A DNA stretch of 26,865 nt from a virus: IMG/VR virus record IMGVR_UViG_3300045257_000018, positions 1-26,865 of that record. One strand, given 5' to 3'. Positions 450-19,527 of this stretch are shown piece after piece. The notes beneath the pieces were generated by a model. The model searched no databases. It worked only from the letters and a program-made list of their open reading frames with translations, and was not told the origin of the DNA. How positions within the stretch are numbered: position 1 is the first letter of the stretch; each line of letters begins with the position of its first letter. A program made the translations under genes and the position numbers.

Positions 450-2125
450 CGTGGGATCTGAGCTGCCCAGACTGGGCCGCGCGGCTCAGGTCTGGGCGCT
501 CGCTGGTTCGGGAAGACCTCCCGATCGATCGCGAGCAGGGTGATCGAGCGGTCGCCGTGTTCAACAAGCTGCGCCTGGCCGATGTGCCGGGCACGCCGAC
601 GATGGCCGAGGCCGGCGGCGATTGGTTCCGGGATATCGTCCGTGCCCTGTTCGGGTCGATGGATCCGGTCACGCGGGCCCGGGCGATCCGGGAACTGTTC
701 CTCCTTGTCCCGAAGAAGAATTCTAAGACCACGAACGGCGCGCTGCTGATGCTGACGGCGCTTCTGCTCAACGAGCGGCCGAACGGGTCGATGATCATGA
801 CGGCGCCAGTCCAGGACGTTGCGCAACTGGCTTTCGAAGCGGCCGCTGGCGCGATTGCCCTGGACAATGTTCTTCACCGTAAGCTGCACGTCAGGGAGCA
901 CTTGAAGACGATCGTGCATCGCGAGACGAAGACCGCGCTCGAGATCATGACGTTCGAACCGGAGGTCTTGACCGGACAGAAGCCGATCGCTGCCCTGATC
1001 GACGAGCTCCACGTTGTCGCGAAGAAGGCGAAAGCGGCCAGCGCGATCCGACAGCTCCGCGGCGGCATGCTGCCGTTCCCTGAAGCGTTCATGGCGTTCA
1101 TCACGACGCAGGCCGAGGAGCCGCCCGCCGGGGTCTTCAAGGCCGAGCTGACGAAGGCGCGGGATATTCGGGACGGCAAGCAGCAGGGCGCGATGCTACC
1201 GGTGCTCTACGAATTCCCACGGGAGATGCAGGAGGACGGGCATTCCTGGCGAGATCCTCGGAACTGGTGGATGGTTACGCCGAACGCCGGCCGGTCGATT
1301 ACGATCGGGCGCCTCGAGGAGGACATGCGCACGGCCGAGCAGACGAGCGAAGAGGAACTTCGCGCTTGGGCGTCACAACACCTCGACATTGAGATCGGGC
1401 TCGCGCTCCAATCAAACGCCTGGGCCGGCGCGCTGTTCTGGGAAGAGAACGCCGAGCCAAAACTGACGCTCGAATCGATCCTGAATCGTTGCGAGGTGGT
1501 CTCGGTAGGGATCGATGGCGGTGGCTTAGATGACATGCTTGGGTTGTCCGCCATTGGCAGGGAGAAAGGCACCGGGTTGTGGCTACATTGGGCGCACGCC
1601 TGGATTCACCCGATCGTGCTCGAGCGCCGTAAGAAGGAGGCGCCGCGGTTCCACGACTTCGCCAAAGACGGCGACCTGACGATCGTCGAGAAGATCGGCG
1701 ATGACCTGACGCAGGTAGCCGAGCGGATCCAACAAATTGAAGACGCCGGGCTGCTCGAGCGAGTCGGAGTTGACGTCGCCGGCATCGGTGGGGTCGTCGA
1801 CGCGCTGGTCTCACCGAAGCCGAAAGGCATAGGCCTGGCTCAGGAGCGCATCGTCGGCATCCCACAGGGCTGGAAGATGGTCGGCGCGATCAAGACGACC
1901 GAGCGCAAGCTCGCCGAGAACATGCTCAAGCACGCCGGCTCGAATCTCATGGCTTGGTGTGTCGGTAACGCGAAGGTCGAGCCGCGCGGTAACGCGATCG
2001 TTATCACGAAGCAACTCGCTGGCTCGGCGAAGATCGACCCACTGATGGCGACCTACAACGCCGTCACGCTGATGGCTCTGAACCCTGAGCCGCGCCAGAA
2101 AAAGTACGACGTTCTCTGGATTTGA
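446..2125 (+). CDS. terL: Terminase large subunit (ATPase/nuclease)
   Basis: Motor that pumps DNA into the prohead and cuts it; 559 aa, the usual size for HK97-like (Terminase_1) large subunits. A variant Walker A, VPKKNSKTT, lies at residues about 88-96. A Walker B-like ALIDELH lies around residues 183-189, with Asp186 and Glu187 as the likely metal and catalytic pair. The C-terminal half has the Asp-rich strands of an RNase H-like nuclease: VGIDGGGLDDMLG (Asp357) and VGVDVAGIGG (Asp443). The ATG at 446 overlaps the terS stop, which implies translational coupling. Pac and cos strategies cannot be distinguished from this sequence. Confidence 0.95.
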   Translation: MTWDLSCPDWAARLRSGRSLVREDLPIDREQGDRAVAVFNKLRLADVPGTPTMAEAGGDWFRDIVRALFGSMDPVTRARAIRELFLLVPKKNSKTTNGALLMLTALLLNERPNGSMIMTAPVQDVAQLAFEAAAGAIALDNVLHRKLHVREHLKTIVHRETKTALEIMTFEPEVLTGQKPIAALIDELHVVAKKAKAASAIRQLRGGMLPFPEAFMAFITTQAEEPPAGVFKAELTKARDIRDGKQQGAMLPVLYEFPREMQEDGHSWRDPRNWWMVTPNAGRSITIGRLEEDMRTAEQTSEEELRAWASQHLDIEIGLALQSNAWAGALFWEENAEPKLTLESILNRCEVVSVGIDGGGLDDMLGLSAIGREKGTGLWLHWAHAWIHPIVLERRKKEAPRFHDFAKDGDLTIVEKIGDDLTQVAERIQQIEDAGLLERVGVDVAGIGGVVDALVSPKPKGIGLAQERIVGIPQGWKMVGAIKTTERKLAENMLKHAGSNLMAWCVGNAKVEPRGNAIVITKQLAGSAKIDPLMATYNAVTLMALNPEPRQKKYDVLWI

Positions 2126-2154
2126 AGCAGCTTAAAAATTTGAAACGGCACAAC

Positions 2155-2175
2155 AGCCCGGCCAAGCGCCGGGCT
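2155..2175 (+). terminator. GC-rich hairpin between terL and capsid gene
   Basis: A perfect 8-bp stem, AGCCCGGC (2155-2162) and GCCGGGCT (2168-2175), closes a CAAGC loop. It is followed by TCGCATTTATGG, so the U-tract is poor. It lies between the terL stop (2125) and the capsid-protease ATG (2197), just upstream of that gene's GGAG ribosome site at 2186-2189. It may be a weak terminator, an mRNA processing or stability element, or a structure that separates translation of the two genes. Confidence 0.5.
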
Positions 2176-2196
2176 TCGCATTTATGGAGTCCGCGA

Positions 2197-4527
2197 ATGT
2201 CAACCAAGTTGAATCATGCCGGCGCTGCGCACGCGCACGAGCTCGTCACGGCCGGAAAGGTCAACGGCGGCACGTGGGATTTCACGGCTGAAGACGGTAA
2301 CAAGCTACTCGGGGCGAATGGCGACGACTGGGCGAACTATTCGAAGTCATTTCTCGCAACACATCCGGATCAAACGCCGAACACAAAAAGCTACTACGGG
2401 TATCCCGTTGTCAAGAACGGCGAGGTCTATCGCAACGCTGTTGTTAGCGCCAAAGGCCGCGCCGCGCAGCAAAGCGCTACCGATGTCGAGAACGCCTGTT
2501 CTTCGCTGCTCGACATGATCGATGCCAAAAAAGCGGCGACAGTTCAATCCAAGCGCGTCGAGCAGGTTCAGCGCGCGTATTCGCGCCTGGACGTCAAGGC
2601 CGTCACCGAAGACGACAACTTCTACTACATCAACGGTATCGCGACCACGCCGGCGCCGGACCGATATGACGACGTCGTTGATCCGATGGGTGCTGAATTC
2701 GCTCTGCCGATGCCGTTCATCTGGCAGCACGATGCGACTAAACCTATCGGCAGCGTCAATACGGCCAAGGCTTCGAAGTCAGGCATTCCGGTTGGGATGA
2801 CGATTCCGAAGGTCAAGGAAGCCGGCGTCCTTCAGGACCGCATCAACGAAGCGGTCCAGTCGATCAAATACAAACTCGTGACCGGCCTGTCGATCGGATT
2901 TCGTGCGCTGAACAACGCGTTCGAGTTCATGGAGAACGGCGGAATTCTCTTCAAGCAGTGGGAGTGGCTCGAGCTATCGCTCGTCACGATCCCGGCGAAC
3001 GCCGACTGCTCGATTCAAACAATCAAGTCCCTCGACACGAAGCAGCGCGCCTCCCCAGGCACACAAGCTGCTCGCGCCGTGCGCCTCACTCCTCCTGCTG
3101 CCGCGGGAACACCTCCTCTCAATTCCAAAGGAACACCCGTGAAGACCATTCAGGAACAGATTACCGACTTCGAAGCGCAGCGCGCAGCTAAGGCGGCCCA
3201 GATGTCGGCATTGATGACCAAGGCTGCCGAAGCAGGCACCGGTCTCGAAGACGCCGATTCCGACACCTACGACACGCTGAAGGAAGAAGTCGTCGCTCTC
3301 GACAAACATCTGGAGCGCCTCCGCGATCATGAGAAAACGATCACGGCCAAGGCAACGCCTGTGCGCTCCGTCAACAATGACGCCGGCGCTGGCTCAGGCC
3401 GCGGCCCGACGATCATAGTCGCTTCTCGCGATGCCGAAGAGAAGTTCAAGGGCCAGAACTACACGCGCATGGTCATCGCCAAGGCGGTGGCGCATCTGGA
3501 GCGCGACAACAACTGGTCCCCGGCGGCCATTGCGCAGCATCGTTGGGGCAAAACGAATCCCACGCTCGTTGCCATCATGAAGGCGAACGAAGCACCTGGC
3601 GGCGGATCCGGCTCAGGCGAGTGGGGCGCGGAACTGGTGCAGGCTGACACTCGCTACACCGGCGACTTCATCGAGTTCCTATATTCGATGACCGTCTTCG
3701 ACAAACTCCCGCTGCGTCAGGTGCCGGCAAACGTCGTCATCAAAGGCCAGGACGGCCAGGGCACGGGCTATTGGGTCGGTGAGTCCAAGCCGATTCCAGC
3801 GACCGTCGGCGATTTCTCGACGGTCAGCCTCACCCCGCTGCAGGTCGGTGCACTCGCGGTGGTTTCGAACAACCTCCTGCGTGATTCGACGCCAGCGGCG
3901 GAAATGCTCGTGCGCGATATGCTGGTGCAGGCAAGTGCTCAGCGCGTCGATACCACGTTCATCTCCACCCTCGCAGCGAGCGCCGGTGTTTCCCCGGCCG
4001 GCATGCTCAATGGCGTGTCGGCGGTCAACAGTGCCGGCAATACGGGCGCCGCGCTTCGTACCGACCTCGGGGCGTTATACGCCATCTTCATCGCTGCGAA
4101 GAACGCCAGCAATTTGCAGCTGGTGATGAACAAGGGTCTGGCCAAGAGCATTTCGCTGCTGGTCAACGCGCTTGGCCAGTCCGAGTTCCCGAACATAACC
4201 CAGGACGGCGGCACGCTGCTCGGCGATCCGGTTGTGACCGGCGACAACGTGGGCGCGACACATTTCATCCTGCTGAAGCCGAGCGACATCTATCGCATCG
4301 GCGACTACGGGATTCAGGTGTCGATCTCGCGCGATGCCACGATCGAACAGAACACAGTTCCGACTGGCGCATCGGACACACCCGTCGCTCAGACGGTGGA
4401 TCAGGTCAACATGTTCCAGAGCGAATCGACGGCCATCAAGGTTGTTCGGCCGATCAACTTCGCCAAGCGTCGGACGGGCGCCGTGCAGTACGTCCACGAC
4501 GCGACCTACAACATGTCGTCCACGTAA
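2197..4527 (+). CDS. Fused prohead protease and major capsid protein
   Basis: Head maturation protease and HK97-fold capsid protein in one frame, 776 aa from ATG 2197 (GGAG at 2186-2189, 7-nt spacing). An upstream in-frame TTG at 2122 has no ribosome site. Residues 1-135 are a preprotease domain with a Trp/Tyr-rich region (WDFTAEDGNKLLG). Residues 140-280 match the U35-type protease: His178 in FIWQHD, Ser232 in TGLSIGF and Glu259 in WLELSLVTIPAN form the expected His/Ser/Glu triad. Residues 315-385 are a charged coiled coil like the capsid delta/scaffold domain (EEVVALDKHLERLRDHEK). Residues 395-776 are the capsid domain. The protease would cut the scaffold region during maturation. A linker rich in Pro/Ala at about 290-314 separates the halves. 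An internal start at 3139 may give separate capsid protein. Confidence 0.92.
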   Translation: MSTKLNHAGAAHAHELVTAGKVNGGTWDFTAEDGNKLLGANGDDWANYSKSFLATHPDQTPNTKSYYGYPVVKNGEVYRNAVVSAKGRAAQQSATDVENACSSLLDMIDAKKAATVQSKRVEQVQRAYSRLDVKAVTEDDNFYYINGIATTPAPDRYDDVVDPMGAEFALPMPFIWQHDATKPIGSVNTAKASKSGIPVGMTIPKVKEAGVLQDRINEAVQSIKYKLVTGLSIGFRALNNAFEFMENGGILFKQWEWLELSLVTIPANADCSIQTIKSLDTKQRASPGTQAARAVRLTPPAAAGTPPLNSKGTPVKTIQEQITDFEAQRAAKAAQMSALMTKAAEAGTGLEDADSDTYDTLKEEVVALDKHLERLRDHEKTITAKATPVRSVNNDAGAGSGRGPTIIVASRDAEEKFKGQNYTRMVIAKAVAHLERDNNWSPAAIAQHRWGKTNPTLVAIMKANEAPGGGSGSGEWGAELVQADTRYTGDFIEFLYSMTVFDKLPLRQVPANVVIKGQDGQGTGYWVGESKPIPATVGDFSTVSLTPLQVGALAVVSNNLLRDSTPAAEMLVRDMLVQASAQRVDTTFISTLAASAGVSPAGMLNGVSAVNSAGNTGAALRTDLGALYAIFIAAKNASNLQLVMNKGLAKSISLLVNALGQSEFPNITQDGGTLLGDPVVTGDNVGATHFILLKPSDIYRIGDYGIQVSISRDATIEQNTVPTGASDTPVAQTVDQVNMFQSESTAIKVVRPINFAKRRTGAVQYVHDATYNMSST
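3127..3141 (+). promoter_or_regulatory. Internal ribosome site and GTG start for stand-alone capsid protein
   Basis: Within the fused gene, AAAGGA (3127-3132) stands 6 nt before an in-frame GTG (3139-3141). The product would begin MKTIQEQITDFEAQ, which is how many free-standing HK97-type capsid proteins begin, and would be 462 aa. This fits an overlapping-gene arrangement like lambda C/Nu3: many capsid subunits from the internal start and fewer protease-capsid fusions from 2197. The site is seen; its use is inferred. Confidence 0.6.
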
Positions 4528-4822: not shown

Positions 4823-6255
4823 ATCTGATTCCGCGTCGGTTCGCCAACTGGCTGCAAAAGAAGCTGACGTTTCCTAGCGTGCCGTTGTTCGCGGCCGGCG
4901 GTCAGTGGATGTCGTGGCTGGTCGGCGGTTCCGATGGCGACGTGCACACGGGAGACTGGCAGGCCAACATCAAGCACACGAAAGAGCACCTTCTTTCGTT
5001 CACGGCCGTCTATTCGTGCATGACGCTGATCGCGTCAGATATTTCGAAACTACGAATCAAGCTGGTCAAGGAACTGAAGTCGGGCATCTGCGAGGAAACG
5101 ACGAGCGCCGCTTTTTCTCCGGTGCTCACCAAGCCTAACCACTACCAGAACCGCATCCAGTTCCTGACGTGCTGGGTCATTTCCAAGCTCGCCTGGGGCA
5201 ACGCTTACATCCTGAAGAATCGCGATAGCCGCGGCGTGGTGACCGAGCTTTATGCGCTCGACCCGCGCTACGTCTTTCCGCTCATCGCCGAAGACGGTGG
5301 GGTGTATTACCAACTTGGTCTAGACTACCTGAGCAAGCAGACGCAGCCCGGCCTGATCGTGCCGGCAAGCGAGATCATCCACGATATTATGATCCCGCTG
5401 TTCCATCCACTCATCGGCGTGTCGCCGCTGTTCGCCAGCGCGCTGCCCGCGTGCACAGGGCTGGAGATTGAGAAGAATCAGGCCAAGTTCTTCGCCAACG
5501 GTGCAAAGATTTCTGGAATCATCACGGCGCCTGGCGCTATTGGCAAGGAAGCGGCTCAAGAGGTCAAGGACAAGTTTGCGTCAGGCTATAGCGGAGATGA
5601 CGCCGGCAAGATCGCCGTCATCGGCGATGGCCTGAAGTTCCAGCCGCTGACCATGACGTCGATCGATGCGCAGCTGATCGCGCTGCTGGAGATTTCGCAG
5701 CTGCAGGTCTGCTCGACGTTTCACGTTCCGGCCTACAAGATCGGCGTCGGCCAGATGCCGCTGAACAACAACGTCGAGGCGCTCGACCAGCAGTATTACA
5801 GTCAGTGCCTTCAATACCTGATCGAGAGCATCGAGCTCTGCCTGGTCGAAGGATTGCGTCTGCCGTCCAATCTGTACGCAGAGCTCGATCTCGATGGGCT
5901 GCTGCGCATGGACACCGCTGCGCAGTACGACACCTACGGCAAGGGCGTGAAGGGCGTGATCCTCTCGCCGAACGACGCGCGCCAGAAACTGAATCTTCCG
6001 CCGGTGGATGGCGGCGAATTCCCGATCGCGCAGCAACAGAACTTCAGCCTGCCGGCACTGAAGAAGCGTGATTCGCTTCCGAACCCGTTTGTCATTGACC
6101 GACCGGTTACTAATCCTACGCCTGACTCAGGCCCCGGCGGGACGGGCTCGGCGGTGCAGGAAGATCCAACCGCTGCCGGGAAAGCGATGGCGACCCTTCG
6201 CCAGAAAATCAATCGACGCATAGCGAGGGAGAGTGAGCTATATGCAGCAGCTTGA
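4819..6255 (+). CDS. Portal protein, HK97 family
   Basis: Dodecameric ring at the capsid vertex through which DNA enters and leaves; 478 aa, slightly longer than typical HK97-type portals of about 400-430. Recognisable family features in order: a YSCMTLIASDISKLRIKL helix at about 56-73, a NHYQNRIQFLTCW segment near 110, WGNAYILKNRDSRG and LYALDPRYVFPL near 130-155, a HDIMIPLFHPLIGVSPL region near 190, and LQVCSTFHVPAYKIGV followed by NNNVEALDQQYYSQCL near 295-330. The tail, rich in Pro/Gly (NPTPDSGPGGTGS), and the final basic helix are probably flexible. It is coupled to the preceding gene by ATGA and its 3' end overlaps the next gene by 14 nt. Confidence 0.95.
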   Translation: MNLIPRRFANWLQKKLTFPSVPLFAAGGQWMSWLVGGSDGDVHTGDWQANIKHTKEHLLSFTAVYSCMTLIASDISKLRIKLVKELKSGICEETTSAAFSPVLTKPNHYQNRIQFLTCWVISKLAWGNAYILKNRDSRGVVTELYALDPRYVFPLIAEDGGVYYQLGLDYLSKQTQPGLIVPASEIIHDIMIPLFHPLIGVSPLFASALPACTGLEIEKNQAKFFANGAKISGIITAPGAIGKEAAQEVKDKFASGYSGDDAGKIAVIGDGLKFQPLTMTSIDAQLIALLEISQLQVCSTFHVPAYKIGVGQMPLNNNVEALDQQYYSQCLQYLIESIELCLVEGLRLPSNLYAELDLDGLLRMDTAAQYDTYGKGVKGVILSPNDARQKLNLPPVDGGEFPIAQQQNFSLPALKKRDSLPNPFVIDRPVTNPTPDSGPGGTGSAVQEDPTAAGKAMATLRQKINRRIARESELYAAA

Positions 6256-7408
6256 TCTCAACGAGCTTGCCGATCTCATCGCCGAAACTGTCATCGATGC
6301 CGTCAGGCCGCTGCACAAGGCATTGGCAGATCAACAGGCATTGATCACCGAACTTCGAAGTCGCCTGGATTCGCTACCTGATGCGCGCTCGCTCGTCGTA
6401 GCCGAACTGCAGAAGTTTCCCGTTCCTCGGGACGGGAAAGACGCCGATGCCGATGCGATCATGGCGGCCGCGCGCGCCGCGGTCGCAGAAATTCCCAAAG
6501 CAGCCGACGGGAAGGACGCTGACCTAACCGTGGTGGCCACGCTTGTCCGCGAAGAAATCGCGAAAGCCCTTGCCGTGTTGCCAGCGCCGAAAGATGGAAA
6601 GGACGCCGATCCGGCGGCTATTTTGGCAGCGGCGCGCGCGGCCGTCGCCGAACTGCCGAGGCCGGCAGACGGCAAGGACGCGGATCCTGAGGCGATCGCC
6701 GCCGCCGCGAAAGCTGCTGTAGATGCACTGCCGCCGCCGCAGGACGGCCGCAGCGTCACGCTCGAGAAAGTCGCGCCGCTCGTGCAGGAAGCCGTAGTGA
6801 AGGCCGTGGCGGCCATTCCGGCGCCCAAGGACGGCGCCAGCATCGCCCTCTGCGACGTCATGCCCCACTTGCGCGCCGACGTGCAGAAGTGGTTTGAAGC
6901 GCTCCCGCGGCCGAAAGACGGCGACAGCATCACGCTCGGCGATGTACTGCCAGCGCTCGAATCCATGCAGGCAAAATGGGAACTGGACTTCGAACGCCGC
7001 GCTATGGACTTCGTGCAGCGCATGGTCGATCGTTTCCCGAAGCCAAAGGATGGCGAAGACGGCCGCGATGGATTCGGATTCGATGATCTGTCGTTCGAGC
7101 AACTGAACGAGCGCGCCGGCGTGATCCGCTTCAGGCGCGGCGACGTTGTGAAAGAGTTCCCAGTAGCTATGGCCGGATTCGTCGACAAGGGACTCTGGCA
7201 GGAACAGCAATACGAGAAGGGCGATGGCGTTACGTGGGACGGAAACTACTGGCTCGCGCGCCGAGCAACGAGCGCAAAGCCTGGCACAGAGGGCGAGGAC
7301 GCCGGCAACAATGATTGGCGCGTCGCCGTGCGCAAGGGTCGAAAGGGCAAGGACGGCATCAACGGCCGTGATCTGACCAATCCGAAACCGCCGAAGCTTT
7401 CCTCATGA
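6242..7408 (+). CDS. DGKDA-repeat virion protein with C-terminal carbohydrate-binding-like domain
   Basis: 388 aa, function unknown. Residues 1-58 are helical. Residues 60-280 hold eight tandem units that start P-x-P-x-DGKDA or a decayed version, each followed by an Ala-rich helix. The C-terminal part (from about 300) contains GLWQEQQYEKGDGVTWDGNYWLA and DWRVAVRKGRKGKDG. That Y-x-x-GD-x-V-x-W-x-G-x-x-W-x-A pattern resembles the small chitin-binding-like (CBM5/12-type) modules common in phage structural proteins. The chosen ATG at 6242 follows GAGGGAGAG (6225-6233); the GTG at 6233 lies too close to that site. The gene sits between portal and connector, so a head fibre, decoration or adhesion protein is likely, but this is not shown. 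Confidence 0.8.
   Translation: MQQLDLNELADLIAETVIDAVRPLHKALADQQALITELRSRLDSLPDARSLVVAELQKFPVPRDGKDADADAIMAAARAAVAEIPKAADGKDADLTVVATLVREEIAKALAVLPAPKDGKDADPAAILAAARAAVAELPRPADGKDADPEAIAAAAKAAVDALPPPQDGRSVTLEKVAPLVQEAVVKAVAAIPAPKDGASIALCDVMPHLRADVQKWFEALPRPKDGDSITLGDVLPALESMQAKWELDFERRAMDFVQRMVDRFPKPKDGEDGRDGFGFDDLSFEQLNERAGVIRFRRGDVVKEFPVAMAGFVDKGLWQEQQYEKGDGVTWDGNYWLARRATSAKPGTEGEDAGNNDWRVAVRKGRKGKDGINGRDLTNPKPPKLSS
6419..7066 (+). repeat. Eight tandem 25/29-residue DGKDA repeats
   Basis: In-frame units begin with the Pro codons at 6419, 6494, 6581, 6656, 6731, 6818, 6905 and 7037. Spacings are 75, 87, 75, 75, 87, 87 and 132 nt, i.e. 25, 29, 25, 25, 29, 29 and 44 residues. Units 1-4 carry the exact DGKDAD core; units 5-8 have DGRSV, DGASI, DGDSI and DGEDG. 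Each unit alternates a turn-forming Pro/Gly/Asp segment and an Ala-rich helix, so the protein is probably an elongated rod. The 4-residue difference is one helical turn. Confidence 0.8.
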
Positions 7409-8130: not shown

Positions 8131-9090
8131 ATGAAAGTTCTCGTTACGGGCGCCGCTGGATTCATCGGCGCTCACGTCTGCCGCGCGCTCGTTGCTCGCG
8201 GCGATGATGTCTACGGCGTAGATAATTTCAACGCGTACTACGATCCGCAATTGAAGCTGGATCGCGTCATCGCGCTATGCCCGCAGGTCCGGATGTCGCG
8301 CATCGACATCTGCGATCGCGACAGGCTTGCGGAAGTATTTGATTCGTTCAAGCCTGATCGCGTGGTGCACCTCGCGGCCCAGGCTGGCGTGCGCTATTCG
8401 ATCGAGAACCCGGTCGCGTACATCGAAAGTAACTTGCTTGGATTCGGCAACGTGATCGAAGCCTGCCGCCAGGCGAAGCTCGAGCACTTCGTTTACGCCT
8501 CGTCGAGTTCGGTCTACGGCGGCAACGAAAAGCTGCCGTTCTCAGAATCGGACAACGTGGATCGGCCGCTGAGCCTGTATGCGGCGACGAAGAAAGCGAA
8601 CGAGCTGATCGCGCATAGTTACTCGCATCTGTACGGACTGCCGACGACCGGCTTGCGGTTCTTCACGGTCTACGGGCCTTGGGGGCGTCCGGATATGGCG
8701 CTGTTCAAGTTCACTAAAGCGATCCTGACCGGCGAACGGATTGACGTGTTCAATCACGGCAACCATCGCCGCGACTTCACATACATCGACGATATCGTAG
8801 AGGGGGTGATCCGAGTTCTCGATGGGCCGCAGGGATGCAAGATCTACAACATCGGCAACGGATCGCCGATAAATCTGACGGATTTCATTGACGCTGTATT
8901 CCGCGCGCTCGGACGTACTGCGGCAATAAACATCCTGCCGATGCAGCCAGGCGATGTTGAAGCGACGCACGCGGACGTTTCTCGGCTGCGGGACGAGATC
9001 GGCTACGCGCCATCTACCTCGGTGCAGGATGGCATCGCGCGCTTCGTGGACTGGTACCTGGACCGGTATGCAATGCGAGCTGCGGCGTGA
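8131..9090 (+). CDS. UDP-glucuronate 4-epimerase-like SDR
   Basis: Extended short-chain dehydrogenase/reductase of 319 aa that probably interconverts UDP-glucuronate and UDP-galacturonate in the cytoplasm. The N-terminus has the NAD-binding GAAGFIG at residues 7-13. The catalytic set is Ser124-127 (SSSSVYGG) and Tyr150-x-x-x-Lys154 (YAATKK). The string VDNFNAYYDPQLKLDRV near residues 30-46 is the mark of the UDP-glucuronate 4-epimerase group rather than GalE. LRFFTVYGPWGRPDMALFKF and DFTYIDDIVEG match too. AAGGTGG lies about 8 nt before the ATG. It starts the glycan cassette and would supply its activated sugar. Substrate is inferred from subfamily motifs. Confidence 0.88.
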   Translation: MKVLVTGAAGFIGAHVCRALVARGDDVYGVDNFNAYYDPQLKLDRVIALCPQVRMSRIDICDRDRLAEVFDSFKPDRVVHLAAQAGVRYSIENPVAYIESNLLGFGNVIEACRQAKLEHFVYASSSSVYGGNEKLPFSESDNVDRPLSLYAATKKANELIAHSYSHLYGLPTTGLRFFTVYGPWGRPDMALFKFTKAILTGERIDVFNHGNHRRDFTYIDDIVEGVIRVLDGPQGCKIYNIGNGSPINLTDFIDAVFRALGRTAAINILPMQPGDVEATHADVSRLRDEIGYAPSTSVQDGIARFVDWYLDRYAMRAAA

Positions 9091-9668
9091 GGGTTTTTCT
9101 CGACGTCGGCGCGCATCGTGGCGAATCTCTGGCGGCGGCCTTGGACCATGAGTTCCGCTTTGACCGCATCTTTTGTTTCGAGCCGGTGAAGTATCTGTGG
9201 GGATTCTTGGAAGCCTTCGTAGATCCGAGAATAAAGATTCAGCACTTCGGGCTTTGGAACAAGAGCTGCAGCATCCCAATATTCCAGCCTGGCACAAAAG
9301 GCGCTGGTATATGGAAAAAGGACAACGGCCGAACGGATGACACGGAGGTTTGCAAGTTGCGGCGCGCCTCGGATTGGATCCGCGGCAACATCGCAAAAGA
9401 CGACATCGTTTTCCTGAAGCTGAATTGCGAAGGCGCCGAATGCGACATCCTTGACGATCTGCTGGACTCCGGCGAGTTCGAGAAGATCAGCTTCGTCATG
9501 GTCGATTTCGATGTCCGCAAGATCGAATCCAAGAGGCATCGCGAGGCCGAAGTCAGAGCAAGGCTCGTGAGATTCGGCTTTCCCCGTGTCGCATTCTCGG
9601 GAGACGTGATGCGCGGTGAGACGCATCAGGAAAGAATCAAGAACTGGCTGCGGCTGGTGGAAGCATGA
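9087..9668 (+). CDS. FkbM-like SAM-dependent methyltransferase
   Basis: 193 aa. The SAM-binding motif I is VFLDVGAHRGES at residues 3-14, followed by the FEPV acidic loop near 32 and a strand FLKLNCEGAECDIL at 109-122 that matches the K-x-D-x-EG-E signature of FkbM-type O-methyltransferases (with Asn in place of Asp). It would methylate a sugar hydroxyl or another small group in the cassette pathway. The GTG start at 9087 overlaps the epimerase stop (GTGA). The Asp-to-Asn change in the K-x-D motif may alter catalysis, so substrate and activity are uncertain. Confidence 0.75.
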   Translation: MRVFLDVGAHRGESLAAALDHEFRFDRIFCFEPVKYLWGFLEAFVDPRIKIQHFGLWNKSCSIPIFQPGTKGAGIWKKDNGRTDDTEVCKLRRASDWIRGNIAKDDIVFLKLNCEGAECDILDDLLDSGEFEKISFVMVDFDVRKIESKRHREAEVRARLVRFGFPRVAFSGDVMRGETHQERIKNWLRLVEA

Positions 9669-10420
9669 GGCTTCGCGACGCAGGTCCCCTAACGATCATC
9701 GTGCCGTTCTATCGTAATATCAGCATGCTGGCCGAGCAGGTCCGGACGTGGAACGAATATCCGGACGGTTTCGAATTCGTCGTCGTGGACGATGGTAGCC
9801 CGGAGCTGGCGGCTCCGATCATTCTGGAAAATGGATCGGAGCGCCTTGCGCCACGCCTGAGCCTCTACCGGATCGATGTCGATATCCCATGGAACCGCGG
9901 CGGCGCGCGCAACCTTGGCGCGCAGGAAGCGAAGACGAAATGGATAATGCACGTCGACGTCGATCACGTCATGCCGGCGCATTGCGCGGCGGCTTTGCTC
10001 GATGCGGAAGTATCGGAGTCGCGCTGGTATCGCTTCCACCGATTCCGCAATGGGGCGGCGGACGAGACGCGGCGCAAGGACGAGATCCCGCACGACCAGG
10101 TGTTCGGCAAGATCAAGCCGCATTGCGATTCGTACCTGTGCACGCGCGAGATGTTCTGGAAGGCCGGCGGATACAACGAGGATTTCTCAGGCTGCCTCGG
10201 CGGTGGAACGCCACTCCTGATTGAGATGGGCAAGCAAGGTCCGGTTGACCTTCTGCCAGAGCCGATCGCCTTGCATGTCTACACTCGCAGCGTGGTTGCC
10301 GACGCATCAGACCATACGCTGAGCAGGGATACGAGCGAGTTCACGCGGCGCAAGAGAACGATGCGCGGCAATTTTCGCGGGCACAATCCGATCAGGTTCC
10401 CATGGTCGAAAGTCCTCTGA
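9665..10420 (+). CDS. GT-A fold glycosyltransferase (family 2/7-like)
   Basis: 251 aa. Opens with LTIIVPFYRN (9-18), then VVVDDGS (39-45) as the nucleotide-binding region. NRGGARNLGAQ at about 77-87 and the metal-binding DVD at 98-100 (HVDVDHVM) are standard GT-A features. GGYNEDFSGCLGGGTPLLIEMG near 170 resembles the galactosyltransferase C-terminal motif (G-x-NEDF-x-G) in which the acidic pair is GGG-T here. No membrane segment is seen, so it is cytosolic. It is coupled to the methyltransferase by ATGA. Donor could be the UDP-uronate made by the first gene; acceptor is unknown. Confidence 0.85.
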   Translation: MRLRDAGPLTIIVPFYRNISMLAEQVRTWNEYPDGFEFVVVDDGSPELAAPIILENGSERLAPRLSLYRIDVDIPWNRGGARNLGAQEAKTKWIMHVDVDHVMPAHCAAALLDAEVSESRWYRFHRFRNGAADETRRKDEIPHDQVFGKIKPHCDSYLCTREMFWKAGGYNEDFSGCLGGGTPLLIEMGKQGPVDLLPEPIALHVYTRSVVADASDHTLSRDTSEFTRRKRTMRGNFRGHNPIRFPWSKVL

Positions 10421-11064
10421 ACTATCCGGCTGTGGCCGGCGAGTTCGAAACGATCGACAAAGTTCTGGAAGGTTTCTCGCTGTCTCGCTACGGCGACGGC
10501 GAGCTAAAGGTCATCTACGGCGCTGGATACTCTCGGGAGCCGAAGAACGGCGCTCTCACTGCGGAATTGCGCGAAGCATTTCTGAACCCGCATCCTCAAT
10601 GTCTTGTCGGTATTCCGACGATGGACCCGCGCGGGCCGAAGTTCGAAAACTGGACGCGGCACGCTGACAGGTTCAGCGCGATCACGGTCGCCGGCTACCC
10701 CTACGTGTCGGCGTTCGTGACGCGCCCGGACAGCGCCCCATGGATCAGTTGCAGGGAATACGCCGAGAAGGTCCAGGCGATCTGGGCCGGCAAGCGCGTT
10801 GCAGTCGTCTGTGAGCAAACCGGCTCGATGATCAAAACCGTCAGCCTTGCAGCAAAGCAGGTGATTCACATCGCCTGCCGGCGCCATCGGGCCTATGCGC
10901 GGATTGAAAAGAGCGAGGACAAGATTCTGCGTTCGGAACCTGACGTTGCGATCATCTGCGCCGGGCCGACCGCGAGTTGCCTAGCCAATCGTCTCTCGGC
11001 TCGAGGAATTCAGGCCGTCGACCTCGGCAGCGCGGGGCAATTCCTGCTCAAGCTGCTGGCATGA
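10402..11064 (+). CDS. GT-D fold (DUF1792-like) glycosyltransferase
   Basis: 220 aa. SLSRYGDGEL at residues about 26-35 matches the R-[FY]-GDGE signature of DUF1792 (GT-D), a third glycosyltransferase fold first described for a streptococcal glycan-modifying enzyme. Later features fit: WAGKRVAVVCEQTG (Rossmann strand), PDVAIICAGPTASCLANRLSARG, and the closing AVDLGSAGQFL. The gene overlaps the preceding glycosyltransferase by 19 nt in another frame and has ATG 10402 as the first start in frame. Its product probably adds a further sugar in the cassette. The assignment rests on the one motif plus overall layout. Confidence 0.65.
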   Translation: MVESPLNYPAVAGEFETIDKVLEGFSLSRYGDGELKVIYGAGYSREPKNGALTAELREAFLNPHPQCLVGIPTMDPRGPKFENWTRHADRFSAITVAGYPYVSAFVTRPDSAPWISCREYAEKVQAIWAGKRVAVVCEQTGSMIKTVSLAAKQVIHIACRRHRAYARIEKSEDKILRSEPDVAIICAGPTASCLANRLSARGIQAVDLGSAGQFLLKLLA

Positions 11065-11780
11065 AGACGATCTGTACATGGCTATGGAACGACGGCTCAG
11101 CCCGTTCCAAGTCATTTGCGCCTGAACACGTCAATGCTTTGCGCAGGATGTTCACGAGGCATTTGTCGGAACCGCATCGCTTCGTCTGCGTTGCTGACTC
11201 GACAAAGGGTTTCGACGCCGAGGTAGAGGTCTTGCCTACGCCTGAAGCCGCGCGCCGCCTGGGCGAACTGAGAAGCCCGGAGGGCGCGCGCTTCCCGAGC
11301 TGCTATCGGCGCCTGTGGATGTTCTCCGACGAGGCTCGCGTGCTCGGGGAGCGCGTTCTGCTCGTGGATATCGACCTCGTAGTCGTGGCCGATCTATCGC
11401 CGATCTTTGAGCCGCAGCAGGATTTCGTCGGGTGGCGACCGTTTCGAGATTGGGGCAACCAATGCCGCTTCGGTGGCGGCATCTACATGCTGACACCCGG
11501 CACGCGAACGCAAGTATGGGATGACTTTCAGGGACACGCGTCAATAGCCAAGGCCAGGGCGGCAGGGTTTCGCGGCAGCGATCAGGCATGGATCAGTTAC
11601 AAGCTCAGCGGACGGGAAACTTATTGGGGCCGCGAGTCGGGGATTTATTCGATTCGCGACTTCCGCCTCGACCAAACGCAACTGCCAACGGATGCTCGAC
11701 TCGTGCAAATGAATGGCCCGTCCAAGCCCTGGCATTCTGATGCTCAGCGAATTCCATGGATTAGCCAGCATTGGGGCTGA
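11061..11780 (+). CDS. GT8-like glycosyltransferase (putative)
   Basis: 239 aa from ATG 11061, which overlaps the previous stop (ATGA). The frame extends to 10977 but that extension only covers the preceding gene. A DxD motif sits in RVLLVDIDLVVVADLSPIF (Asp103, Asp105). RFPSCYRRLWMF upstream and GGGIYMLTPGTRTQVWDDF downstream fit the GT8-type / capsular polysaccharide transferase layout. GSDQAWISYKL near residue 175 corresponds to the later D-Q motif. Cytoplasmic, no signal or membrane segment. Acceptor and sugar are unknown. Confidence 0.78.
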   Translation: MKTICTWLWNDGSARSKSFAPEHVNALRRMFTRHLSEPHRFVCVADSTKGFDAEVEVLPTPEAARRLGELRSPEGARFPSCYRRLWMFSDEARVLGERVLLVDIDLVVVADLSPIFEPQQDFVGWRPFRDWGNQCRFGGGIYMLTPGTRTQVWDDFQGHASIAKARAAGFRGSDQAWISYKLSGRETYWGRESGIYSIRDFRLDQTQLPTDARLVQMNGPSKPWHSDAQRIPWISQHWG

Positions 11781-11783
11781 TGA

Positions 11784-12305
11784 ATGAAGTGCGCATTGCT
11801 GGCTCCCGGCCCGAGTATGTCTCAGGCCGTAGCGGACAGCGTGCGCGAATATCCACTAGTCATAGCGGTCGGCAACGTCGGTATGGACTTCGCGCCGTGG
11901 TCTCATGCGCTGGTCGCTCAAGATCGAGCATGGTGGACCGCGCATCCAGAGGCTCGTCAGTTTGCCGGCCGCAAGTTCAGCACGAACAAGATAGAAGGCG
12001 TCGAGCGCATCAAGACGGACTTGCTGGTTTCTTCGCAGTCCAATTCTGGGGTGCTGGCATTGATTGTGGCCGTCACGGTTTTCGGAGCAACGGAGCCGGA
12101 TCTGTTTGGATTCGACATGCGCGGCACGCACTACTTCGGAAAGCATGCAGAGCCAATGCGTAATACGACGCCGGAGCGCTTCAGGACATTCCGAAACCAA
12201 TTCGAACTGGTTGGAAAATATATGCGCAAGATTGGCGTTCGAGTAGTCAACAAGACGCCGGGATCTGCGTTGCGATGCTTCCCGATTTCTGTGGGTGCGC
12301 TGTGA
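11784..12305 (+). CDS. Rossmann-like protein of the glycan cassette, unknown function
   Basis: 173 aa, not assignable to a named enzyme. It begins CALLAPGPSMSQAVA, a nucleotide-binding-like glycine loop of the type seen in DUF115/Maf-type and sialyltransferase-like phage proteins, then YPLVIAVGNVGMDFAPWSHALVAQDRAWWTAH. GATEPDLFGFDMRG gives a later strand and acidic loop. ATG 11784 is 3 nt after the preceding stop; an ATG at 11780 opens a different frame that I reject. The 3' end overlaps the gp10-like tail gene by GTGA, which physically couples the cassette with tail genes. Confidence 0.65.
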   Translation: MKCALLAPGPSMSQAVADSVREYPLVIAVGNVGMDFAPWSHALVAQDRAWWTAHPEARQFAGRKFSTNKIEGVERIKTDLLVSSQSNSGVLALIVAVTVFGATEPDLFGFDMRGTHYFGKHAEPMRNTTPERFRTFRNQFELVGKYMRKIGVRVVNKTPGSALRCFPISVGAL

Positions 12306-12784
12306 GCGATACGGTCTACGTCTCCGGCCTCAAGGAGCTGCAGGCGCGCATTCAGGCGATCAGTGATGCCGTGGGGGAGAAGACGGCCGCGAAGCCCGTC
12401 AGCGCCGCGCTGCGTAAGTCTGCCGTGACGTTGCAGAAGTCAGTCCAGGCACATCTACAGGCACGCGGCCACATCCGAACTGGAACGCTTCTGAACAATA
12501 TCATCGTGGCTAAGGTCAAGGCGCGGCAGCCCGGCATGGCGACCTATATCGTGACCGTGCGCGCGAAGGCGAAACGGTACAAGGACACGGCGCGCAATCG
12601 ATCTGCCGGCAAGGTCGGCGGCAAATACAAGGACTACGGACCACTGTTCTATGCGCGCTTCTCCGAGTTCGGCACATCGCACGAAGCGGCCACGCCTTGG
12701 ATGCGGCCGGCGTTCGAGGAGACAAAGGGTAACTTGCCGGAAGAGTTCCGTGACGCGCTGGCCGCGAAGCTGGATGCGCTGTGA
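12302..12784 (+). CDS. HK97 gp10-like tail completion protein
   Basis: 160 aa from GTG 12302, which overlaps the preceding stop; an in-frame TTG at 12275 is disfavoured. Family features: ELQARIQAISDAVGEKTA in the N-terminal helix, GTLLNNIIVAK, and the characteristic FYARFSEFGTSHEAATPWMRPAFEE near residues 117-141. Proteins of this family join the tail tube to the connector. The long basic stretch between (VRAKAKRYKDTARNRSAGK) is a variable loop. Coupled by GTGA to the next gene. Confidence 0.92.
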   Translation: MSDTVYVSGLKELQARIQAISDAVGEKTAAKPVSAALRKSAVTLQKSVQAHLQARGHIRTGTLLNNIIVAKVKARQPGMATYIVTVRAKAKRYKDTARNRSAGKVGGKYKDYGPLFYARFSEFGTSHEAATPWMRPAFEETKGNLPEEFRDALAAKLDAL

Positions 12785-13134
12785 TCCCTGACGTTCAAAG
12801 CTTGTTGGTCACGGCGCTGGCTGCGATTACGCCGCGCGTCTATCGCACCGAAGCTGAAGAGGGCGCAGCAGCTCCATACGCGGTATGGACAATCGTTTCC
12901 GGCGTGCCTGAGAACAATGTCAGTGGCGCGCCAGAGACGGACAATGCCCGAATTCAGATCGATTGCTATTCGGGCCGTGACAATCAGCCGCAGGCTCGGC
13001 AGATGTGTGAGCTCGCCCAGGCGGCCGTTGAGGCGACGTCTGCGAACGTCGTCTTCGGGCCAGTCGAGTCGCGCGAGCCTGGCACGAAACTATGGCGCTG
13101 GCAGTTCGATTCATCGTTCTGGACCAATCGCTGA
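12781..13134 (+). CDS. DUF3168-like tail terminator/completion protein
   Basis: 117 aa from GTG 12781 (GTGA overlap). Short alpha/beta protein with VYRTEAEEGAAAPYAVWTIVSG and DNARIQIDCYSGRDNQPQARQMCELAQAAV, the pattern of DUF3168 / HK97 gp11-type proteins that cap the tail tube before it joins the head. Position between gp10-like and tail tube genes agrees. It ends just before the long hairpin-rich gap. Confidence 0.85.
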   Translation: MIPDVQSLLVTALAAITPRVYRTEAEEGAAAPYAVWTIVSGVPENNVSGAPETDNARIQIDCYSGRDNQPQARQMCELAQAAVEATSANVVFGPVESREPGTKLWRWQFDSSFWTNR

Positions 13135-13432
13135 ATTCCGCGCCGGCTTACGGTGGCGCGGACATTGGCGCGAGTGCCTAGGCAACTCTCGCGCGCGGTA
13201 ACGGCCGCAATTCGGTAGCGGTCCACACCGGGGCACTTGCCCGTGCCGGGATTCGTCCCGGCATCTATTCGACTGCCGCGAGGCAGCCAACAAAGCTACG
13301 AGTCGGGGGCCATTAGTCCCGACACTCATTCCGCATTTCGGCTCAGCGCTGAGTCGGAAAACCGATCGTCGTGAGACGACCGGACCAGCAACGCCGTGAG
13401 GCGTAGCACCTCCCATCGATGAGGATTCAACA
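13135..13432 (+). ncRNA. Hairpin-rich structured leader of the tail tube gene
   Basis: 298 nt with no credible gene. About ten consecutive inverted repeats: 13138-13161 (7 bp, CCGCGCC/GGCGCGG); 13168-13194 (7 bp, GCGCGAG/CTCGCGC); 13231-13242 (GGGC/GCCC); 13244-13263 (8 bp, TTCG loop); 13273-13286 (5 bp, GCGA loop); 13302-13323 (6 bp, GTCGGG/CCCGAC); 13329-13359 (TTCCG/CGGAA enclosing CTCAGCGCTGAG); 13362-13383 and 13388-13407 (each 5 bp with GTGA loop, one mismatch, then 2-3 bp); 13409-13424 (CCTC/GAGG). The last 3' arm includes the GAGGA ribosome site of the GTG at 13433. Several loops are UUCG or GNRA types. It could be a structured 5' leader, a small RNA or a processing platform. No tRNA features. 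Confidence 0.6.
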
Positions 13433-13906
13433 GTGTCACTTTCAACCAAGAAAACCGAAGCATGGTTCGTGCTATCTGAGACTGGCGGCTACGCGCTGGT
13501 CAAAGTCGGCTGCCCGAAGGGCATCGGCCCGATCGGCGGCTCCAAGTCGCAGATCGATGAAACCTGCCTGGACGATATCGAGAAGCAATTCGGCCCCGGC
13601 ATGGCTAGTCCTGGCGCGATCACTGTTCCGCTGGATTTCGACGATAGCAAGGTCTCGCATCAGCAGATCGTCGCGATGGACCTGGACGATCTGAAAACGA
13701 CGTGGGTCGTCGGGTTTTCCAACGGCATCGCGCCGCCGGTCATCGATTCTGGTACCGGCGTCATCACCTGGCCGAGCACGCGCACCTACGTCGAGTTCCA
13801 GGGCTACGTCGCCGATGCGCCGCTCGACTTCCAGATCGACAAGAACGTCGGCATGGCCGTTTCGATCCAGCGCAGCGGCCCGAAGACCTACCACTACAAG
13901 CACTAA
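13433..13906 (+). CDS. Major tail tube protein
   Basis: 157 aa from GTG 13433, with GAGGA at 13421-13425. Small beta-rich protein of the lambda gpV-like / phage tail tube family: the N-terminal SLSTKKTEAWFVLSE, DFDDSKVSHQQIVAMDLDDL and the closing NVGMAVSIQRSGPKTYHYK suit this group. It forms hexameric rings stacked around the tape measure. It sits after the tail completion genes and before the chaperone as usual. Its long structured leader is special. Confidence 0.85.
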   Translation: MSLSTKKTEAWFVLSETGGYALVKVGCPKGIGPIGGSKSQIDETCLDDIEKQFGPGMASPGAITVPLDFDDSKVSHQQIVAMDLDDLKTTWVVGFSNGIAPPVIDSGTGVITWPSTRTYVEFQGYVADAPLDFQIDKNVGMAVSIQRSGPKTYHYKH

Positions 13907-14011
13907 CGGCGTCCAACCGAAACCCGGCCGGCGTGCGCGTTTCCAAACGCGCGCCCTTGCCGTCGTGCGTGCGCACGTCGGTCGGACTTTACTTAACCGC
14001 AAGGAGTAGAT
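13907..14011 (+). promoter_or_regulatory. Two hairpins between tail tube and chaperone genes
   Basis: A stem GCGCGTT (13935-13941) with TCCA loop and AACGCGC (13946-13952), extended by GGC/GCC at 13930-13932 and 13953-13955. A second hairpin at 13961-13981 is CCG, one T-T mismatch, CGTGC, GTGC loop, GCACG, mismatch, CGG, echoing the mismatch layout of the tetraloop hairpins upstream of the tail tube. No U-tract follows, so these look like mRNA structures (stability, or separating tube from chaperone synthesis) more than terminators. AAGGAG at 14001-14006 serves the next gene. Confidence 0.5.
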
Positions 14012-17600: not shown

Positions 17601-19527
17601 CGATAGCGGCGCGCTTGTCGATACGACGGGAACGTTCAAAGGACAGCACGCGCTATTCGGGGGCGCCTACTACAAGACCAAGGATATCGCCACCGATCCT
17701 GCCGTCCAGGCAGCGGCCGATGCTTTCTTCACTCAGCTGAAGGCGAGCACCGACGCATTCGCAGCGCAATTTGCGGTTAAGGCCGTGAACGTCGTCGGCG
17801 GTGCATTCACCACTACGTTCGACAAGAACGGCAAAGCCACGGGAACGTCTGACACGGTTCTCGGCGTCACGCGTACGGGCGAGACGCAGCAGCAGTTCGC
17901 CGAACGTCTCCAGGCTGACAGCTATCTTGCGGTGCTCGACAAGATGGGCTTGGGCGCTTCGGACTTCGTGAAGGGTCTGCAAGACGACGCTGACAAGCTA
18001 TTTGCGGCCGTTCAGGATTTCGCGTCGGCAACGCAAGCTGCGAACATCGACCTCGGCAACGGCTTCCACTTCCTTGCGCTGCAATCGAACGCGACGCTTG
18101 CCGACGTCATGAAGTTCGTCGAGAGCGCGGCACAGGCCGGCGAAACTTTGACGCAAACCTATACGCGTCTTGCTCAGGCTCAGGCCCAATACAACCAGTT
18201 CGTCCAGCAGTTCAAGCCAGGCACTCAATATGTCGATGACTTCGAGGCAGCGTTCTCGCAGGTCTATCACCAGATGCTGGCGAACATCGACGCGGCGAAC
18301 AAGCTTGCGATCGCCGCGGGCGCATCGGGAGCCGCGCAAGAAGACCTGACGAATATCCAGAACGCCGCCGCGCAGCAGATTGCCGCGCTCGTGGTGCAGC
18401 TCGAGGCGTCGGCTCAGTCGCTCGCTTTCTCGCTCGGGCTGACCACGCAGGGCACGCTAGACCAGACCAATCAGGCGATTCAGGACATCATCTCGTCGGC
18501 GAAGAATACGACGGACGCGACGACCACGGTTGCTACCGGTCTGACGACGACGGCCGGCGCCATGGCCGGCTTCGGCAGCGCGATCACCGCGGTCTCCAAG
18601 GCTGCCACCGACGCGATCAATCTGCTGCTCGGCAACTTGTCGCCGCTCAACGATCAACAGAAGCTCCAGATCGCGTTGCAAGGCCTCGCCCAAGGCACCG
18701 TCACCAAGGAACAGGTGCTGCAGATCGGCCAGGCGCTCTACGCCTCGTCCGAAGCGTATGTGAACCTGTTCAACCAGGTTTCGCAATATCCGGACAAATC
18801 GGCCGGCGCATCTAGTGGTGGCCGGCGCGGCGGTGGTGGTGGAAAGAGTTCAAGTTCTAGCGCCGCCGCCGGCGCGCCTCCTCCTGATTGGACGGATAGC
18901 GCATCGCAGTGGGCTGCCGCCGGACTCACGCTCGGTCAGTGGAATTCGCTGTCTGACGACAACAAGGCGAAGCTCGAGGACCTGCTCAACAAGCAGACCA
19001 CTCTCACGGCAGCGAAGACCGCGCAGGACTTCAATACCCTCGGGCAGCAGATCGCCGAGATCGCCACGGCCAAGGGCGAGGATTTCCAGACCGTCATCGA
19101 CGAGATGGGAATCAACAACAAGGACCTCGAAAAAGGTCTCGGCCTCAAGAGCGATGCCGAGCTGCAGGCTTATCTGAAGAAGGTTCAGGATCAGCAGGAC
19201 AGCGCCAAGGAAAACACGCAGTCGATCGTCGATGCGATCAACTCGCTGCCGGATAAACTCGCAATCGCGCTCAATGGCCGCGGTGCGGCGCCTGGTATTA
19301 CGCCAACGCGCGCTGGGCCAGTGCCGGCGCCAGCGGCGCCCCCATCCGCCGGCGATGGATCTACAGCCCCTCCGCCTGGCCGCGGCGTAGCGCCTCCACC
19401 AGGCAGCGGGCGCTACCTTACGACCGACGACATCGTGAACGGAGTGGTCGCCGGCGTCTCGCGCACGGTCGCGCCGCTCGTAGCGCAAGCTCGCAACAGC
19501 AGTCGCCCTGTCGTCCAGGTTCGATGA
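14656..19527 (+). CDS. Tape measure protein
   Basis: 1623 aa from TTG 14656, 3 nt after the frameshift product ends. The [19 protein letters not shown] opening is typical for tape measure proteins and supports this start over the ATG at 14686. Long alpha-helical stretches cover residues 1-240 and 380-760. Hydrophobic segments at about 265-370 and 870-960 (Gly/Ala-rich, [19 protein letters not shown]) may insert in the host membrane on injection. The region around 1390-1410 is Gly/Ser-rich, and a Pro-rich linker (about 1550-1590) precedes a final helix. No lysozyme or peptidase motif is recognised. At about 1.5 angstrom per residue it predicts a tail near 240 nm. It sits in the usual place before distal tail genes. 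Confidence 0.93.

Follow-up and report, generated by a model that had tools for sequence, protein, structure and literature searches.

Position and folding of the gap before the tail tube gene

In the window analysed here (the whole 26,865 nt stretch, positions 1 to 26,865 of IMG/VR virus record IMGVR_UViG_3300045257_000018), a 298 nt gap on the plus strand (13135-13432) lies exactly between a tail terminator gene (12781-13134, plus strand; PHROG 78/123, E 5e-8 and 1.7e-7) and a major tail (tube) protein gene with a GTG start (13433-13906, plus strand; PHROG 158 major tail protein, E 1.9e-18). A sequence-only reading had proposed that adjacent inverted repeats fill this gap as a candidate structured RNA; an inverted-repeat search and the gene ends at 13134 and 13433 confirm that its coordinates were exact and the listed repeats real. 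The single-strand fold of the gap reaches -139.5 kcal/mol (z -5.05) and was equalled by 0 of 200 dinucleotide shuffles, an excess stability in keeping with that proposal. In a cruder mononucleotide test of 298 nt tiles across the record (n = 179), just one tile has a lower z than that at 13113 (-5.1), whose span covers the gap; the gap itself scores -3.6 in this test, and the mean of all tiles is -0.8. Homologous gaps in two phage contigs, L002 (tail tube 78% identical) and L013 (55%), also beat their shuffles (z -3.43 and -2.81, respectively). The 298-base gap is a genuinely structured RNA leader. Two further places fold unusually well: the lowest tiled z (-5.2) belongs to 3875-4172, within capsid coding sequence, and the gap after the tail tube gene (13907-14011, with the tile around 14007) has z -4.7 and a similar counterpart in L002.

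That the RNA matches no named class was upheld by Rfam 15, in which no family reached the gathering threshold in the window, none appeared to E 5 in 13000-13500, and 14 related contigs gave tRNA only. Named phages yielded no DNA match to an 801-base query of the region, and short queries returned nothing or matches at chance level. We found no promoter-like sites for the window leader, no intrinsic (rho-independent) terminator (GC hairpin plus T run) on the plus strand of 13050-13500, and no match to a boxA-like sequence (YGCTCTTTA, ≤2 mismatches) in 13135-13432.

Inverted repeats occupy the gap from end to end. At its 5' side stand hairpin 1 (13137-13162), an 8 bp inverted repeat (TCCGCGCC/GGCGCGGA) whose stem is present at this place in all three leaders (window, L002, L013); hairpin 2 (13168-13194), a 7 bp inverted repeat (GCGCGAG/CTCGCGC) with a self-complementary apex, TGCCTAGGCA, in which three pairs stay paired despite two-sided changes in L002/L013; and a conserved core, TAACGGCCGCAATTCGGTAGC, with the hairpin GGCCGC-AATTCGGTA-GCGGTC (13199-13223), which has 1-2 mismatches in L002 and L013 and, beyond these, no other good match among the loci compared. 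A small hairpin of the MFE fold (GGGC-ACTT-GCCC, 13231-13242), its loop different in L002, is followed by an 8 bp hairpin with a TTCG loop (13244-13263). The loop letters and stem of the latter are as first read, and the stem is retained in L002; the description as UUCG-type fits less well, since an A-U pair closes the loop, so that it is not the canonical cUUCGg, and the loop is not conserved, being CTTG in L002.

The 3' half begins with a third GNGA hairpin of the same motif as the twins (13271-13288), with a GCGA loop and weak covariance model matches (R1, E 0.26; R2, E 0.039), then the hairpin GTCGGG/CCCGAC (13302-13323), which shows a compensatory T-A to C-G change in L002, and a hairpin with a 12 nt palindromic apex, CTCAGCGCTGAG (13336-13359). 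Directly 3' of this lie the twin hairpins: A (13362-13383; CCG-A-TCGTC-GTGA-GACGA-C-CGG; covariance model R1), with compensatory stem changes between relatives, and B (13388-13407; GC-A-ACGCC-GTGA-GGCGT-A-GC), whose stem ends 28 nt 5' of the tail tube GTG. Both follow one plan of outer stem, A mismatch, 5 bp and GTGA, as the sequence-only reading had noticed, and its three GNRA-type loops (the GCGA of 13271-13288 and the two GTGA of A and B) are likewise present. The last hairpin, CCTC(CCATCGAT)GAGG (13409-13424), does overlap the ribosome site GAGGA (13421-13425), as had been claimed; it is weak and, by shuffle test, no better than composition provides.

The apices at 13336-13359 and 13175-13184 (CTCAGCGCTGAG, TGCCTAGGCA) are perfect palindromes, and equivalents of the former hairpin in L002, L013, L200 and L213 are palindromic too, in other letters. 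The apices might conceivably kiss or dimerise; as dimer sites they were set aside, the whole-gap palindrome counts in the window not being significant (63 of 500 shuffles).

The twin-hairpin module in relatives and in unrelated phages

The leaders of the window, L002 and L013 share the 5' hairpin with self-complementary apex, the core TAAYGGCYGCAATTCGGTAGC, the hairpin preceding the twins, and the twin GNGA hairpins themselves, followed by the ribosome site. Four pairs of the 5' domain are preserved with both sides changed, and the twin-hairpin loops of these leaders, which were found by protein homology alone, are all GNGA and in no case GNAA. Pairs in homologous gaps are thus kept through two-sided changes (in L002 and L013, and for hairpin B in 5 of its 7 pairs across ten leaders), the compensatory pattern that had been put forward as support for a structured RNA. 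Neither outcome named beforehand as refuting the claim, a stability no better than shuffled sequence or gaps varying without compensation, was seen. A tRNA-Trp lies in L002 at 2827-2902, in the linker between two hairpins just after the equivalent of 13302-13323, and a tRNA-Thr in another phage, L200, at 9924-9999 (minus strand), 5' of the twin hairpins of a capsid leader; each is some tens of nucleotides before the twin hairpins, and only these two leaders contain such tRNAs. IMG/VR contains very few close relatives of the tail tube, and most of the distant relatives have gaps of just 10-60 bases.

The part that extends beyond close relatives is a module of two ~5 bp hairpins with GNGA loops, usually with an A mismatch, followed by the ribosome site. 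A twin-hairpin covariance model places this module directly 5' of the tail tube genes of L040 (itself part of the model) and L049, and of prophage tail tube genes in Alcanivorax (L111), Marinobacter (L154) and, weakly, Aestuariicella (L117, E 0.31). Prophages of Alcanivorax sp. S6407 and Marinobacter algicola DG893 are among the carriers of the element. Across 10 leaders, hairpin B shows two-sided changes in 5 of 7 pairs, compared with 0-2 in every slid control, and a covariation score of 0.457 versus 0.169 when shuffled and ≤0.149 in slid controls; the 10-leader count is somewhat biased because two of the ten leaders were found by sequence pattern. In 9 of 10 B hairpins the mismatch keeps its 5' A, and the B loop of L111 is GTTA. 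The model was also scanned against 369 genomes of one class, giving 4 new matches, about the chance expectation at that threshold; of these, L195 is a genuine phage locus whose scaffold and capsid genes are preceded by hairpins, and the other three look like chance.

The sequence-only reading had tied the element to the tail tube. It does precede the window's tail tube gene; the tie is too narrow, because the module stands before virion genes of unrelated phages, including capsid, scaffold and terminase genes, and before both capsid and tail tube in six phages: G001 (L002), G008 (L013; reached by a route other than the blind pattern described below), G760 (L200), L205, G761 (L239) and G756 (L237). 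An identical hairpin B precedes the major capsid gene of the L013 contig, a GTGA hairpin precedes the capsid gene in that of L002, and near-identical B hairpins occur in unrelated phages. The capsid leader of L200 has the full architecture of hairpin chain, embedded tRNA-Thr, twin GNGA hairpins and start, and it and the capsid leader of the L013 phage fold better than shuffles (z -2.09 and -3.70, respectively). The module lies before scaffold-like and capsid genes in the L168/L193 phage, which has a different capsid family, the motif before scaffold and capsid in L195 and L193 and before terminase and capsid in L251; in L198 it is before terminase, with a single hairpin before a scaffold-like gene. 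Some members stand before a terminase or endolysin gene, whose products are not abundant.

The twin-hairpin leader is an option used by some phages, and its distribution is sporadic. The window's own capsid gene has no such leader; it continues from the protease in one open frame (2122-4527), in which the capsid part may begin at an internal GTG near 3139. Close capsid relatives without the hairpins include Limnohabitans phage DC33 (71% identity), zth2-2, phiV10, PAE2, P26218, PBR31 and others, and only 11 of 138 tail tube leaders have any GNRA hairpin with a 5 bp stem within 100 nt, compared with 2.2% of random positions.

Other features of the record touch these relatives. A sugar/glycan gene cassette (8131-12305; epimerase-, methyltransferase- and glycosyltransferase-like genes and a sialyltransferase-like PHROG 4603) interrupts the head-tail connector genes, and its last gene is retained in L002 and L013. 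A protein with repeated PKDGKDA-type segments (6233-7408), possibly a head fibre, is related to proteins of three other twin-hairpin phages. Within the tape measure gene and antisense to it (19304-19396, minus strand), ARAGORN reports a tRNA-Tyr, probably falsely, as the Rfam tRNA model does not call it.

A context-blind search for twin GTGA hairpins

IMG/VR was searched with a pattern for two GTGA hairpins that contains no gene information, GCCGTGAGGC-N(8-38)-GCCGTGAGGC. It matched 67 stretches, reduced to 49 non-redundant places, in 26 of which a start codon with a ribosome site follows within 75 nt on the same strand, as opposed to 1 on the opposite strand. The genes downstream are head, tail or packaging genes in 21 of the 26 and come from several unrelated capsid families. 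Nineteen encode a major head protein, major tail protein, scaffold or terminase by PHROG, names that are computed assignments on contigs that are mostly fragments (L005 was placed because it is nearly identical to the tail tube of L002), and a further two (L217, L257) have beginnings that resemble scanned members; the remaining five (L201, L230, L237, L241, L259) are without a PHROG class, and L230, L237 and L259 look structural. The downstream families comprise major head protein PHROGs 283, 212, 1357, 29 and 8536, major tail protein PHROGs 158, 584 and 1407, scaffold and terminase, and other routes added capsid families PHROG 10/617, 334 and 1328. The fifth, outer pair was left free in the search; 67% of hairpins have a Watson-Crick pair there, versus 24% expected. 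The window leader itself has tandem GNGA hairpins (13362-13383 and 13388-13407, plus 13271-13288) and stems with compensatory change, and lies on the same strand within 75 nt of a virion gene start.

The other 23 places are of mixed kinds: some are coding sequence, repeats or terminators, and some are leaders that the rule failed to catch (e.g. L251, before a capsid gene). In 398 cellular genomes of the phylum the twin pattern matched once and a control loop twice; with no excess there, the argument rests on strand, position and gene class and not on the raw number of matches. In the phage contigs compared, 37 of 95 GNGA hairpins lie upstream of a start, as against 1 of 95 for the antisense equivalent and 1 each for GNAA and UUCG, a difference that is partly ascertainment. 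A separate group (L202, L231, L235, L253, L254 and L260, with L212, L228 and L256) has a conserved block with 2-3 GTGA hairpins (CCGAAGGCGGTTGAGCCGTGAGGCGAGGGTCACGGTGCCGTGAGGC) and no virion gene following the block, and is perhaps another RNA. Rows of 3-4 consecutive GNGA hairpins, including CGCTGTGAAGCG units, occur in L198, L220, L250 and L262; a terminase small subunit gene follows those of L198 and L262.

In all, many unrelated phages have the twin GNGA end before a capsid, scaffold, tail tube or terminase gene, and it appears to be a common, hitherto undescribed element for the control of virion proteins. No paper describing twin GNGA leader hairpins or GCCGTGAGGC in phage was found in the open-access literature, and a description in a subscription journal is possible.

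Possible roles of the leader

The explanation we favour, with about even confidence, is that the tail tube cistron has the gap as its structured 5' leader, in which the twin-hairpin 3' module protects a processed end, presents the ribosome site and sets output. The gap would lie within a long late transcript, and certain phages would place the module ahead of the virion proteins that they make in greatest amount (capsid, scaffold, tail tube). If this polycistronic RNA were cut inside or above the leader, compact hairpins with stable GNGA caps might shield the new 5' end, isolate the ribosome site from upstream RNA and keep it free, and mRNA half-life and translation rate would be set for each cistron separately, and with them its dose, without a promoter. 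Boosting or timing of expression, as the sequence-only reading had suggested, may be the result. Host enzymes excise tRNAs from transcripts, and the tRNAs embedded in the L002 and L200 leaders fit such protection because their excision would presumably free a 5' end there. No non-structural protein family common to the unrelated phages was found among their records, many of which are fragments, and this favours a mechanism that is host-general or protein-free. Several observations count against protection: GNAA or UUCG caps should do equally well if stability alone mattered, and GNGA dominates; some members precede terminase or endolysin genes; no site of cleavage was seen; and the tRNAs are limited to two leaders. 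Nor is a leader needed for high output, since close capsid relatives and most tail tube relatives manage without one.

Known systems offer partial parallels. The T7 gene 10 leader has a hairpin just 5' of the major capsid gene's ribosome site and is credited with raising mRNA life and translation; it is served by a promoter of its own and processed by RNase III, whereas here the GNGA hairpins are paired, no promoter was found, and several structural genes of unrelated phages are involved. The intrinsic terminators before the lambdoid major tail gene (annotated in mEp235) occupy the same place in the gene order; unlike them, the twin hairpins have no T run.

The main rival, to which we give roughly half as much credence, is that the twin GNGA hairpins bind a phage or host protein that switches translation or stability of the virion cistrons as one late regulon. 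It would account for the exclusive GNGA loops of the three homology-found leaders, the mismatch A kept by most B hairpins, the pairing of the hairpins, the functionally related gene set that they mark and the GNGA excess upstream of starts, in part an effect of ascertainment. The MS2 coat operator and the Mu Com/mom hairpin are likewise small hairpins that lie near a ribosome site and contain an A that is unpaired or mismatched; here, by contrast, the hairpins are paired and upstream of the site, and we know of no cognate protein. The lack of a common candidate protein across the phages searched (many as fragments) and the GTTA loop of L111 hairpin B speak against recognition. Many tail tube leaders have a weak hairpin over the ribosome site, such as a switch could use, but as a conserved feature it was rejected: it can form in 14 of 16 tail tube leaders, and composition-matched shuffles form it 85% of the time, so that switching by ribosome-site pairing is possible and indistinguishable from C-rich composition. 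Taken further, and offered tentatively, paired GNGA hairpins might constitute an RNA-level code in unrelated tailed phages, recognised in trans by one protein or host RNA machine, by which capsid, scaffold, tail tube and terminase would form a post-transcriptional late structural regulon.

A transcriptional element (an attenuator, a terminator or a nut- or put-like RNA that makes RNA polymerase ignore terminators) is unlikely. Paired small hairpins are suggestive of one, as are the terminator-like hairpins with T runs just 5' of the GNGA hairpins in L111, L154 and L213; against this, the window leader has neither a same-strand terminator-like site nor a boxA-like match, and the short, regular distance to the start codon suits translation, not transcription. 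The lambdoid boxB of nut resembles the twins as a short GC stem with a GNRA-type fold cap in a phage transcript, but boxB is accompanied by boxA and serves early antitermination, while the hairpins here are without boxA, beside a ribosome site and in late structural cistrons.

We also think it improbable that the hairpins are a DNA-level or mobile repeat, that is, short palindromic units spread among phages and kept in intergenic gaps with no RNA role. Their sporadic presence among close relatives and the near-identity of hairpin B in unrelated phages are what such spread would leave, but the strict strand bias (26 versus 1), the regular distance to the start and the gene choice are not, and the stems vary by compensation instead of copying. 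The sequence-only reading had allowed for either a structured leader or a small RNA; the structured cis leader stands, and a separate trans-acting small RNA made from the gap is very improbable. The 5' part is indeed also structured and conserved in L002 and L013; yet its core is confined to these close relatives, no promoter-like or same-strand terminator-like site was found, and the module with the widest conservation lies directly against the ribosome site, which leaves a free small RNA unsupported. Chance GC-rich hairpins or repeated coding sequence, to which the half or so of blind matches away from starts and the absence of excess in cellular genomes might point, are already contradicted by the shuffle tests, strand asymmetry, gene context and covariation, and can hardly be the explanation.

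An old question is how one late transcript yields capsid and tail tube proteins by the hundred and only a few copies of the neighbouring products. A shared RNA element that can be recognised by sequence and stands just before such genes, across unrelated capsid lineages, opens that question to simple reporter tests. It would also give annotation a new RNA family, would mark virion genes in metagenomic phage contigs, and may serve as an expression part.
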